Origin: Spirochaetaceae bacterium
GTDB taxonomy: Bacteria; Spirochaetota; Spirochaetia; Treponematales; Breznakiellaceae
Length of the DNA stretch: 50,466 nt
Reading direction: 5' to 3'
Assembly: GCA_031280035.1 (NCBI GenBank)
Contig: JAITHJ010000016.1
Coordinates: forward strand, 1-50,466
The position numbers and the translations under genes were made by a program. Position 1 is the stretch's first letter. Each line of letters opens with the position of its first letter. The notes beneath the pieces are model-generated. The model was given only the letters and a program-made list of their open reading frames with translations. It made no database searches and was not told the origin of the DNA. This document shows positions 22,995-49,520 of the stretch, in pieces.

Positions 22995-24239
22995 CTACGG
23001 AAATATTCCACGGCTTTTTTTTGCTTTGCTTAACCGGTAAAGCGCCTGCATATTTGCAGCCAGTCTGAACGAAACTTTTTGTTCTTTAACGATCCGCAAA
23101 ATCTGATTAAAGCTGCGCACCATAACGTTTCTCAGCGTTTCATTGACCTGATCTTCATCCCAAATAAGATTTTGGATATTCTGCACCCATTCAAAATACG
23201 AGACGATCACACCGCCGGCATTGGCGAGAATATCGGGAATTACGGTAACGCCGTTTTTATCAAGGATGGCGTCAGCTTCGACAGATGTAGGGCCGTTAGC
23301 GCCTTCGACAATCAGCTTTGCTTTTACGGCAGCGGCGTTACCGGCGGTAATTTGATTCTGAAGGGCGCACGGAACGAGGATATCACAGGCGCAGGTAAGC
23401 AGTTCGGCATTGCCGATCTTTTTTGCGCCTGTTTCGGAATAATCGTCGAGATGCTTGGCTTTCTGAAGCAGCGCGGGAACGTCAAGACCGCTTTCTTTAT
23501 AGAAGCCGCCGGTACTTCCGCTTACAGCGACTACCTTGTAACCGGCCTCGTGGAAAAGCCGTGCAGCGATGCCGCCGACATTACCCAAGCCTTGCACGGC
23601 GATACGAAGATTTGAGGCGTCGATTTGCAGGTATTTCACGGCCTCGTCCGTAACAATGCATACGCCGCGTCCTGTGGCCTCAGTTCTGCCAAGAGAGCCG
23701 CCTATCTCAAGCGGCTTACCGGTAACAACGCCATGGACGCTGTACCCTTTGAAGATGCTGTACGTATCCATGATCCAACCCATGATTTCAGGGCCTGTAT
23801 TAACGTCTGGAGCGGGAATATCCCGTTCCGGCCCGATGATGGGGAGAATCATTGCGGTAAAGCGGCGGGTAAGCCGTTCTAGTTCATCTTTTGAGAGCTC
23901 CGCCGGATCGACTTTTACGGCGCCTTTCGCACCGCCGTAGGGTATATCAACAACAGCGCACTTCAAGCTCATCCATGCGGCGAGTGCTTTTACCTCATCC
24001 ATATCAACGTCAGGATGATAGCGGATACCGCCTTTACACGGCCCGCGCGAGCTTGAATGCTGGACGCGGTAGCCTTCGAATACTTTAATTTTGCCGTCAT
24101 CCATTTTGACAGGAACAGCGACTTTCAATTCACGTTCAGGATATTTTATAGCTTCGTAATCATTCTGCTGAAGACCAAGTTTCCGCGCGGCGGCCTCAAG
24201 AACTTCAAGCATATTTTCATACGGATTATAAGCACACAT
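22995..24239 (-). CDS. gdhA: Glutamate dehydrogenase (Glu/Leu/Phe/Val dehydrogenase family)
   Basis: A 414-residue enzyme interconverting glutamate and 2-oxoglutarate plus ammonia. Substrate-side motifs are GPCKGGIRYHPDVDMDEVKA and VVDIPYGGAKGAV (catalytic lysines), then PAPDVNTGPEIMGW. The Rossmann nucleotide site is GLGNVGGIAARLF, and the C-terminal EGANGPTSVEAD and ILANAGGVIVSYFEW are typical. Length and motifs fit the hexameric ~420-residue class; the cofactor cannot be assigned with certainty. Two starts are equally well supplied with ribosome binding sites: the ATG at 24239 (GGAGG 5 nt upstream) and a GTG at 24251 (AAGGAGG upstream). The former is given. Confidence 0.94.
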   Translation of the reverse strand: MCAYNPYENMLEVLEAAARKLGLQQNDYEAIKYPERELKVAVPVKMDDGKIKVFEGYRVQHSSSRGPCKGGIRYHPDVDMDEVKALAAWMSLKCAVVDIPYGGAKGAVKVDPAELSKDELERLTRRFTAMILPIIGPERDIPAPDVNTGPEIMGWIMDTYSIFKGYSVHGVVTGKPLEIGGSLGRTEATGRGVCIVTDEAVKYLQIDASNLRIAVQGLGNVGGIAARLFHEAGYKVVAVSGSTGGFYKESGLDVPALLQKAKHLDDYSETGAKKIGNAELLTCACDILVPCALQNQITAGNAAAVKAKLIVEGANGPTSVEADAILDKNGVTVIPDILANAGGVIVSYFEWVQNIQNLIWDEDQVNETLRNVMVRSFNQILRIVKEQKVSFRLAANMQALYRLSKAKKSRGIFP

Positions 24240-24420
24240 AAATGCCTCCACATTAACTCCTCCTTTATATCGGCACAATGGGCGCAATGGTTTTGCATGA
24301 GTTACAGGCGCAGGGGATATTTATACAGTTGGATTTATCGTTTAGGGCGGAACTAACCGCATAACGCATAAATTTGTATTGCGCCCCGCAACGCCCCAGC
24401 CGGACTCCGCAGCGGCGGGC

Positions 24421-24714
24421 GGAGGATATGATGTGATTTATTGTGAATAAAGGTATTTTACTTGTGGACAACTTGTGATTTCAGCAGAACTGCACGCCAT
24501 CCGTGCTCTATTTGCCGCCGCGCGCCGCCGTCTGAACACAGCCTGTAATAGCCTGAATACCGCTCGAAACAGGCTGAATACAGCTTGAAAAGACATTCGC
24601 GCCGTCCGTTCTGGACAAGCTGTGATTTGCTGTGAACAACTCCCGTCTTGCTGTGGACGGCTGGTTCTTCCTTGTGGATAACCTGTGATTTCCTGTAGCC
24701 GGCACGCGGCGAAC
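24421..24714. repeat. 21-bp-periodic degenerate tandem array (14 units)
   Basis: Starting at 24421, units of exactly 21 bp follow one another to 24714. The best-preserved begin at 24442, 24463, 24610, 24631, 24652 and 24673 and read TGTGgACAAc followed by tTGTGATTTc, so each unit is itself two similar ~10-bp halves. A middle block (24526-24588) has a diverged form with CTGAATACaGC. One unit contains TGTGGATAA (24673-24681), identical to the complement of a DnaA box, and others differ by one base. No reading frame with a ribosome binding site fits the array. It lies between gdhA and the glycine-rich lipoprotein gene. Confidence 0.75.
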
Positions 24715-24749
24715 AGCCGCATTTCAGCGCGCTGTTCGCCGCGCCGCTT

Positions 24750-26201
24750 TCAGAGCGAAAACGGCAGGCGGACGATAACCACGCCCGACCCGCCGGCATG
24801 ACCGTTATCGCTCGTGCCTGTCGCGCCGGCGCCGCCGCCGCCTGTTCCCGCCGCGCCGTCATATTTTGTCGCGCCGCCGCCATGAGAGGCCGTCCCGTGT
24901 TTTGACGGAACATTATAGCTGCTATTGCCGCCGCCCGCGCCTGTTGCGCCGCCGCCGCCGTAACCTTTTGGCGCGCCGGAAATGCCGAGCGTTACGCCCG
25001 CGCCGCCATTTCCGGCCATACCGTCTCCGATAGCCGCCGCAGCCGGAGAAGACGCGCCCGCGCCGCCGCCGCCTGTCGCCTTGGCGCTGCCGGCGGCGCC
25101 TGAGGGATTACCTTGTCTCGGCGTAACGTTTTTTGCAGGGCCTGCCGCCGCGACAATCCACGAGCCGCCGCCGCTGCCGCCTTCGCCGCCGGTATGTACG
25201 CCGCTCCCCAAATTGCCGCCGCCGCCCCCGCCGCCGTAAGCAGTCAGCGTTTCGCCTGCCGGCCCGAACTCCGAATTAACGCCTGCGCCGCCGCTCCAAC
25301 CGGCAGTTGTATTCACGCCGCCTTTGCCGGCCTTCACCGCGTATGCGATTTCCGGCAGGAACGTGAAGCTTTCTCCGGCTCTGGTAAAGTTTGCGGGCGA
25401 ATCAACCGGCGGCCGTCCGTAATAGATAACGCCGCCCGCGCCACCGCCCGCCGCCCAGTTGCCGGTCTCGTTATTTATATCGCCGCCGGCGCCGCCGCCT
25501 GCCACAATAAGGAGTTCGCCGTCCCCGCCGCAGTCCTCGTTCACCGTAAAGGTGTACGCGGTCTGCCCGCCGGTATCCGCCGCCGGCTTGTACTCAAACG
25601 TGTGTATTTCATCATGGGTCGCGCCGTCAAACGTAATCTCGCCGCCTTGCGCCATAGTCTTATTCCACAACGTTATCGTATAGACGGACTTCTTCGTTCC
25701 GTCAGCGTTGGATACGGTTACTTTCTTTAGAATCTTTTCTCCAAGTACGGCGGGGATTGGGGCGCAAGGAACGCCGCCGGTTATTTCAACGGAGGACGGG
25801 TCTTCGTCCCCGAGGTCCGCGCCGCCTTCAGGTCCGCCGTCCCAGTCCGTCATCACGACCGAAAAACCTGCCGCCGCCGCCGCGCTTATCACGAAATCCG
25901 CGCCGCCGGTATAATCGTAGCCGGGAACAGCCGCCGTGTAATCCATTATATTGGAAGCAAAGCGCGGCGAAATCAGGTTGTCGCCGCCGGCGCTGACCGA
26001 AAACGCGCTCAAAACGACTCCGGGCGTGGGTTTTCGCGCAGGTTTGGGCGCATCGCCTTCCGATTCGCCGGCAATCGTACAAGCCGCCGCCATCCAAACT
26101 GCCGCCGCGCCAAGGAGCGCGAAAGCCGCCGCGCGGCCCCGCACCGCCCGCTTCGGCGCAGCCGTTCCGTCCGCACATGCGAATTCTTGGTGATTATTCA
26201 T
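24750..26201 (-). CDS. Glycine-rich lipoprotein
   Basis: A 483-residue putative lipoprotein. The basic N-terminus is followed by AAAFALLGAAAVWMAAAC with a lipobox-like AAAC, then a Ser/Glu/Asp spacer. A domain around residues 50-180 has FSVSAGGDNLISPRF and AYTFTV-type strands; the C-terminal ~250 residues are extremely Gly/Ala-rich (LLIVAGGGAGGD, GYGGGGATGAGGG) and end in GGSGVVIVRLPFSL, a common terminus of glycine-rich phage-tail and surface domains. GC content is far above neighbouring genes. The ATG at 26201 has GAGAGGA 6 nt upstream; the frame stays open upstream through repeats, but that extension is not protein-like. It is probably exposed on the cell surface. Confidence 0.7.
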   Translation of the reverse strand: MNNHQEFACADGTAAPKRAVRGRAAAFALLGAAAVWMAAACTIAGESEGDAPKPARKPTPGVVLSAFSVSAGGDNLISPRFASNIMDYTAAVPGYDYTGGADFVISAAAAAGFSVVMTDWDGGPEGGADLGDEDPSSVEITGGVPCAPIPAVLGEKILKKVTVSNADGTKKSVYTITLWNKTMAQGGEITFDGATHDEIHTFEYKPAADTGGQTAYTFTVNEDCGGDGELLIVAGGGAGGDINNETGNWAAGGGAGGVIYYGRPPVDSPANFTRAGESFTFLPEIAYAVKAGKGGVNTTAGWSGGAGVNSEFGPAGETLTAYGGGGGGGNLGSGVHTGGEGGSGGGSWIVAAAGPAKNVTPRQGNPSGAAGSAKATGGGGAGASSPAAAAIGDGMAGNGGAGVTLGISGAPKGYGGGGATGAGGGNSSYNVPSKHGTASHGGGATKYDGAAGTGGGGAGATGTSDNGHAGGSGVVIVRLPFSL

Positions 26202-26335: not shown

Positions 26336-26464
26336 CCCAGAGATTTGGAAAAATCTCCCGCATCTCGTGAAAAAATCTCCCGCATCTCCTTCTCACGAGA
26401 TGCGCATCTCGTGAGAAGATCTCCCAATGATTTTGCAAAACCGCCCAGTGATTTTGCCGCGCCG
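26336..26464. repeat. 21-22 bp tandem repeats with an embedded 30-bp perfect palindrome
   Basis: Units beginning CCC start at 26336, 26357, 26379, 26423 and 26444 (lengths 21, 22, 44, 21, 21). Two carry CCCGCATCTC and two carry CCCARTGATTTTGC. Inside the double-length unit, 26389-26418 is a perfect palindrome whose half is CTTCTCACGAGATGC; the same CATCTCGTGA word recurs at 26361-26370. The palindrome could fold into a strong cruciform or hairpin. There is no T tract, so it is not a usual terminator. Confidence 0.75.
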
Positions 26465-26491
26465 TGCGGCGAGCCGAAGACCGCCTACACA

Positions 26492-26613
26492 GCGCGCGTG
26501 TAAAAAGCGGCGTGCGGTCAGCGGGCGGCCGTGGCTTGTGATGACGCGCGCTTTGGCGTGGCCGTACTTGACGCACGCCGATGCCGCCCGCACGCCGCTT
26601 TTCACACGCGCGC
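26492..26613. repeat. 26-bp near-perfect inverted repeat, 122 bp overall
   Basis: The left arm 26492-26517 (starting GCGCGCGTGTAAAAAGCGGC) and right arm 26588-26613 are reverse complements at 25 of 26 positions, separated by 70 bp. Weaker complementarity continues outside the arms (GAAGACCGCC against GCCGTCTTC). No transposase and no clear target-site duplication is visible. It could be a MITE-like remnant or an RNA-forming hairpin. Confidence 0.65.
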
Positions 26614-26660
26614 CCCGCCGTCTTCCCGCGCCGCCGTGCGATGCCGCCATTCGCCCCAGA

Positions 26661-26751
26661 CTTCCGGCCATTCTTCCCTGACAACTGATAACCGGCAACT
26701 GACAACTGTCCACTGTCCACTGCCCACTACCCATTCTTCCCTGAAATCTGG
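26661..26751. repeat. 7-bp tandem (heptamer) array
   Basis: From 26661 the sequence divides into consecutive heptamers: CTTCCGG, CCATTCT, TCCCTGA, CAACTGA, TAACCGG, CAACTGA, CAACTGT, CCACTGT, CCACTGC, CCACTAC, CCATTCT, TCCCTGA, AATCTGG. The 14-mer CCATTCTTCCCTGA occurs twice, exactly 63 bp (nine units) apart. It resembles the heptanucleotide STRR arrays described in cyanobacteria, from memory. Confidence 0.75.
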
Positions 26752-26834
26752 AATTGCAAATTCCTGCGCATAATGATACGATAGCGGCGGACGGCGGGTT
26801 TGCCGCTCGGCGTTGAATTATAAAAGGAGTTTTT

Positions 26835-48922: not shown

Positions 48923-49035
48923 TATGTATCCTCCTTCGTATCCGCCCAAAGCCGCGCGTCCGTAAAGCGGAGGCGGGTCTTTTTTGGCACGATATGCTTG
49001 TAGTTGGGTTATATCCAGTTATATTTGAGTCAAAC

Positions 49036-49414
49036 ACGGCTGTAGCTGTGGTATAAGCGCTTACTTCCGCAATCAACGTAAGTATCGCCGGTTCACGGAC
49101 AGTTACCTTTGGTATATCAGTAGCTACTTCTACTTCAAAAGTAGCTACCTTTGGTATACCGGTAGTTACTTCTGTTTCAAAAGTAGTTACCTTTAGTGTA
49201 TCGGTAGTTACTTCTGATTCAAAAGTAGTTACCTTTGATATATCGGTAGTTACTTCTGCTTCAAAAGTAGTTACCTTTAGTGTATCGGTAGTTACTTCTG
49301 AGTTAAAAGCAACTGAATTTGGAGTGGAAACAGCCGCCTCTATGCCAAAAGCAGCTGTCGTTGGACGGTACGTAAGCGCGTTTTGGGCAGCGTTATGCCT
49401 ACAAAAAGCGCTCA
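49036..49414. repeat. 21-bp tandem array (about 18 units)
   Basis: Units of exactly 21 bp, best conserved from 49099 to 49308, begin with GTAGTTAC or GTAGCTAC and alternate between two endings (CTTTagTgTATCG and TTCTgaTTCAAAA), so a 42-bp double unit is also visible. Flanking units are progressively degenerate on both sides. Both strands are open: the minus strand would read heptapeptides such as EVTTDTL/KVTTFEA within a 198-codon frame (48882-49478) that lacks a ribosome binding site, and the plus strand would read KVVTFSVSVVTS. Coding status is doubtful. Confidence 0.85.
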
Positions 49415-49520
49415 ACCGGGCGTTTTGAGCGGAGATAGGTGAATAGTACGCGCCGGCGGTTTTTGTTCCGTATTTCATGGTACGCTCACGGTATCATGTT
49501 TTATATTACGTGCCAAGCCC

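Follow-up and report, generated by a model that had tools for sequence, protein, structure and literature searches.

An intergenic array of diverged 21-bp repeats beside gdhA in a spirochete draft genome, and a class of arrays that share its period

What kind of sequence is the worn run of 21-bp repeats at positions 24421-24714, which lies in the intergenic space between a lipoprotein gene and gdhA in the genome of an uncultured, probably termite-gut spirochete? The window analysed here (50,466 nt) is one contig, C60, of a 1.43-Mb draft genome that is 64% complete. An earlier note, written from the letters alone, had proposed either a phased protein-binding array, for DnaA or a nucleoid protein, or a decayed minisatellite. 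We consider it likely that the array is an old non-coding minisatellite within a lineage class of intergenic 21-bp arrays whose units are mostly unrelated. Its immediate surroundings are as follows.

22995-24242, minus strand: gdhA (glutamate dehydrogenase), the downstream neighbour of the array
24705-24743, minus strand: inverted repeat of 13 bp without mismatch, immediately past the stop codon of the lipoprotein gene
24750-26201, minus strand: glycine-rich lipoprotein gene (Gly_rich_2, PF21722), the upstream neighbour of the array

A V-type-ATPase-like gene lies farther along. The inverted repeat is probably the 3' end hairpin of the lipoprotein gene and partly overlaps the array end. Searching Rfam at E up to 1 returned a single match, which lies outside the array and scores below the gathering cut-off. 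Beyond the lipoprotein gene, at 26380-26760, is an intergenic element of dispersed type: it has inverted arms rich in GC, contains the words AAAATCACTGGGCGGTTTTGCAAAATCATTGGGAG and TCTCACGAGATGCGGGAGATTTT, and recurs in at least five further copies on other contigs (L235-L238, L240). Its exact unit is missing from 199 other genomes of the family.

Autocorrelation of the array rises well above shuffled background. Self-identity at lag 21 over 24421-24714 was 0.443, against 0.249 ± 0.027 in 500 dinucleotide shuffles (z 7.2), and none of the 500 reached 0.443 over all lags from 5 to 69. Lags 42 (z 5.9), 63 (3.5), 189 (5.5) and 210 (5.5) were also raised in this region, and lags 84 and 126 were not. 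Folded at 21 columns, the array held 11.8 bits, against 3.5 ± 0.6 and a maximum of 5.8 in 2000 shuffles. It comprises 14 units of 21 bp, within the 10-100 bp range of tandem minisatellite units, and Tandem Repeats Finder missed it at the usual threshold, which shows how advanced its decay is. The fourteen in-register units described in the earlier note are thus real as a periodicity, but they are not copies of one decayed unit: a unit-by-unit identity matrix revealed a patchwork, with A-type units at both ends, a central run of three M-type units, and two B-type units.

24421-24483, plus strand: block A, three A-type units, GGAGGATATGATGTGATTTAT / TGTGAATAAAGGTATTTTACT / TGTGGACAACTTGTGATTTCA
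24484-24504, plus strand: B-type unit GCAGAACTGCACGCCATCCGT
24526-24588, plus strand: block M, three units (24526, 24547, 24568) with the word CTGAAYAC(A/C)GC
24589-24609, plus strand: second B-type unit, AAAGACATTCGCGCCGTCCGT
24610-24693, plus strand: block A', four A-type units
24694-24714, plus strand: last row, the most degenerate 21-bp unit (TGTAGCC...)

The 3' part of this last row overlaps the hairpin at the neighbouring gene's 3' end. The two B-type units (24484, 24589) are identical at 14 of 21 positions and stand 105 bp apart, and block A' is in register with block A at spacings of 147, 189 and 210. The claim that shared words recur at multiples of 21 therefore holds for the A-type words, but only about 7 of the 14 units carry the words TGTGGAYAAC/TGTGATTTC, and the M-type word (CTGAATACAGC) sits 7 bp out of phase with them. 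Likewise, the proposed division of each unit into two halves of ~10.5 bp is visible as internal similarity in block M and weakly over the whole array (z 3.6 at 10 bp, 2.9 at 11 bp), but it is absent from the sampled intergenic DNA of this genome (z 0.8 and 0.3), and as a general rule the half-unit was rejected. At lags 7 and 14 the identity of the array was 0.265 and 0.236, which indicates no 7-bp period.

The minus strand of the array is open for ORFs of 94, 151 and 65 aa, since stop codons are rare in the repeat when it is read in that direction. Seven codons make 21 bp, and the array could be read as a degenerate coding heptapeptide repeat, a reading that draws on the open stretches of 94 and 151 codons and on other, coding arrays of the genome (L134 15477-17339, L131). 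The codon scores speak against it: log-odds per codon for the three ORFs were -0.24, -0.07 and -0.07, like those of off-frame DNA (-0.12) or lower, whereas predicted genes cut into 94-codon chunks had a mean of +0.12 and a 5th percentile of +0.04. By codon score, the array is non-coding. Neither the 94- nor the 151-codon ORF matched Pfam, and an 82-aa translation of the array found one weak match in 199 other genomes of the family (30% identity, three stops), in a genome that has no comparable array at that site. Several other intergenic arrays, moreover, have stops in all six frames. A conserved protein gene, the outcome against which the earlier note had set its reading, is not what these scores and searches describe, and we find the heptapeptide interpretation hardly credible. 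Coding arrays of period 21 do exist in the genome, where 11 of the 465 genes examined gave a lag-21 signal; the predicted gene at L134 15067-17532 contains long 21-bp coding arrays with PETGLDD-type heptapeptides, near intergenic 21-bp arrays of the same contig.

The note had also reported the complement of a DnaA box in one unit, and this is present.

24673-24681, minus strand: the only perfect DnaA box in the array, TTATCCACA (complement TGTGGATAA)

Two one-base variants, TTATTCACA (24442-24450) and TTGTCCACA (24463-24471), accompany it, rather than the several that had been claimed, and TTWTNCACA sites likewise number two in the 294 bp. The perfect box and the two variants are in phase, which is consistent with a DnaA-binding array, for titration or as an origin-like element, in which TTATCCACA-like sites would be phased at two helical turns. 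Clusters elsewhere in the family lend this interpretation some support: TGTGGATAAC boxes ~11 bp apart are found at three loci in relatives (L046 4800-5700, L043, L078), at the first of them upstream of a gene that, judged from its translation, reads as a putative dnaN, and some GTDB and viral matches to our search pattern have TGTGGATAA beside TGTGATTT in ~11-bp steps. The three TGTGGATAAC clusters are probable replication origins. Four viral contigs (L115, L116, L118, L120) have a common cluster of DnaA-like boxes (GTGAATAACTTGTGATCTCGCTGTGGATAAGCTGTGATTTC) at 11/22-bp spacing. At our locus, however, about half of the half-units are TGTGATTTC, which is no DnaA box and alternates with A-type words; the neighbours are gdhA, the lipoprotein gene and, farther on, the V-type-ATPase-like gene; relatives are without the array; and most other arrays of the genome share the period but not DnaA-like words. 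The GC-skew analysis suggested in the note as a check for origin nearness gave no switch at the array; neither dnaA nor dnaN was found, which says little in an assembly that is 64% complete. The phased DnaA or nucleoid-protein array put forward in the note thus fares poorly on box number, conservation and comparison with the other arrays. Judged by its motifs, the array is probably not a DnaA-binding site, and a titration or origin-like role appears very unlikely. Compared with known systems, it shares with DnaA-box clusters (oriC, datA-like) a perfect TTATCCACA accompanied by near matches in the same phase, but it differs in having few good boxes, the wrong neighbourhood for an origin and no conservation. 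The iteron arrays of plasmids, which repeat every 17-22 bp and come with DnaA boxes, resemble it in a period of ~21 bp and a nearby DnaA box, while our array lies among housekeeping genes, neither of its two immediate neighbours is a replication initiator gene, and its units are strongly diverged.

Searches of related genomes for the array consensus, which the note had proposed, showed that a homologous array is absent from the 199 other genomes of the family, compared at one genome per species. The array DNA had no second copy in its own genome or in relatives, and inspection of synteny upstream of gdhA orthologues in relatives showed no array there. A sequence model of the A-type units (R1), run over 200 family genomes, recovered its own locus and one weak match elsewhere, which is an 11-bp DnaA-box cluster. 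The pattern TGTGRAYAASNTGTGATTTS gave 32 matches in 84,980 species, about the number estimated for chance, and none of 39 GTDB and viral pattern matches lay inside a strong 21-bp array.

A search for paralogues of the lipoprotein gene led to another contig, where the flanking DNA carries a second, unrelated 21-bp array, and for this reason we sampled the genome more widely (559 kb, 39% of the draft genome, with genes called by a simple codon-score finder). We counted 126-bp stretches, none overlapping another, whose self-identity at a given lag was 50% or more: lag 21 had 30 of them, lag 42 had 23, lag 63 had 21 and lag 7 had 17, and any other lag had at most 8. The density at lag 21 was 53.7 per Mb, whereas lags not divisible by 7 had a median of 1.8, which makes 21 bp the commonest period by a wide margin. 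Summed autocorrelation of intergenic DNA gave z values of 17.0, 10.8, 8.2, 5.6 and 6.3 at lags 21, 42, 63, 84 and 105, and we regard 42, 63, 84 and 105 bp as higher-order periods of the class. Among 188 intergenic segments with a length of 150 bp or more, 18 contained a stretch of 105 bp whose z at lag 21 exceeded 5; two of the 18, L179 (mainly a 23-bp array) and L186 14471-14759, are marginal, both at z 5.1, and some are heptamer arrays. Most of the listed arrays have unrelated units, such as AAATGACTGGGCGGTTTTCTA, CTCTAGCCGCCGAGGCCACGG, TCAGAGACCTCCCCAAATCGC, CCGCCTGTTGGCAAATTCACT and GAAGTCTTGAGACTTGAACGT; the similar units TACCATGGTACCAGACCTTGG (L175) and GATGATTTTGCCGGCAATGGT (L180) overlap predicted ORFs of weak score. 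Segments with the lag-21 signal are longer than the rest (median 597 vs 263 bp) and GC-richer (0.54 vs 0.42), and they are found in tandem, divergent and convergent gene settings with no visible preference. The array at 24421-24714 is a member of this class: it is non-coding, has a 21-bp period and has a unit of its own. In the same window, a stronger 21/42-bp array (GTAGTTACCTTTGATATATCGGTAGTTACTTCTGATTCAAA) occupies 48986-49416; it leaves one minus-strand frame open (EVTTDTLKVTTFEA), whose codon score is marginal.

The period extends to relatives, with other units. It was seen in G001, G005, G007, G029 and G033, and weakly in G004, the G005 array being a heptamer repeat, and 21 was the top intergenic lag of the pooled relatives (8 segments). 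Samples of 100-110 kb from each of four closed relative genomes contained no 21-bp intergenic arrays. In the genome under study, three loci carry intergenic 23-bp arrays (L142 6010-6190, L174 11455-11638, L179 12060-12340), two of which (L142 and L179) fold much better than their column permutations; given these three loci, 21 is not a strict rule.

How could one step length arise with so many units? One candidate is that arrays start as 7-bp simple repeats, with 21 bp as three heptamers and also seven codons. In its favour, intergenic DNA shows an excess at lags 7 and 14 (z 6.5 and 5.5), lag 7 is found in 12 intergenic segments, and heptamer mixtures resembling the known LSVISYQ-coding repeats (PMC4679880) occur in the window and elsewhere; on the other side, the summed intergenic lags 28, 35, 49 and 56 are weak or absent while 42, 63, 84 and 105 are strong, and the 7-bp sub-period missing from our array is also missing, on average, from the unit consensus of 16 arrays (-0.024 ± 0.025), which has no mean sub-period of 10 either. 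These 16 comprise 12 intergenic or weakly predicted arrays from the genome itself, one in the open frame at 49.1 kb and three from relatives, and their lack of both sub-periods argues against a heptamer origin and against helical half-units as general rules. As a general rule the heptamer origin is thus not supported, and as the source of our array we consider it rather unlikely. A second candidate is selection for helical phasing, in which a period of two 10.5-bp turns would favour sequence-independent binding of a nucleoid-associated protein. Two turns of B-DNA do make 21 bp, multiples of 21 fall on the same face, and similar periods with different units recur at many loci, but the missing 10/11-bp signal genome-wide, the presence of 23-bp arrays and the lack of a visible gene-orientation preference make this most improbable.

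The explanation we favour is growth by slippage and subsequent decay. A local 21-bp stretch would be duplicated, either by slippage during replication or by unequal recombination, arrays would re-expand in steps of one or more units, and point mutation, which preserves register, would then wear them down; self-complementary units may form lagging-strand hairpins that promote slippage. The DnaA-like words would be a by-product of this array's own unit, and the array would probably have no sequence-specific function. That the array is non-coding, free of indels in its register, highly diverged and one of 18 such segments supports the note's second option, a decayed minisatellite. Across the class, the self-complementarity of the units exceeded that of random intergenic 21-mers set in tandem (mean z -1.8 vs 0.0; p ~2e-6 for the full set of 19 arrays, and 2.6e-5 when only the 16 arrays of period 21 were compared). 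For the array at 24421-24714 itself the advantage in folding over its column permutations is slight (z -0.67), and ordinary intergenic DNA from the genome had a mean z of -1.77 in the same test, which makes the hairpin argument weak. Slippage and decay also have to accommodate the A-type words, whose pattern is stricter than decay alone would need.

Among classes already described, heptamer arrays come closest. Intergenic heptamer repeats are known in bacteria, with TAACTGA in Beggiatoaceae, Cyanobacteria and Bacteroidetes (PMC4679880) and GGGAATC/GGGGAYT in Xanthomonas and Nostoc (PMC4692102). Like these and the Calothrix STRR, the arrays described here are intergenic, tandem, lineage-specific and present at many loci per genome, and this genome also has heptamer arrays; the 21-bp arrays differ in their basic period and in having units that are mostly unrelated and mostly without 7-bp substructure. 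With bacterial minisatellites and VNTRs they share head-to-tail units, a mostly intergenic position and species specificity, but here one period is common to unrelated units. The open-access literature, to which the search was confined, yielded no description of arrays that have a 21-bp period in common but unrelated units, and a recent Breznakiellaceae genome paper contained none of the repeat-related terms looked for.

Tandem arrays within one bacterial genome usually share a unit, spread by copying, or differ in period. A shared period with mostly unrelated units suggests instead that the length of the step is itself constrained. It is possible, though doubtful, that a lineage-specific process repeatedly makes intergenic arrays with a fixed 21-bp step, regardless of the local sequence; behind it could stand a machinery for slippage or copying that has escaped notice, or a constraint, independent of sequence, that imposes 21-bp spacing on the chromosome. 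If confirmed in complete genomes, these arrays would offer a bacterial, experimentally open counterpart to the question of why satellite repeats favour certain lengths.
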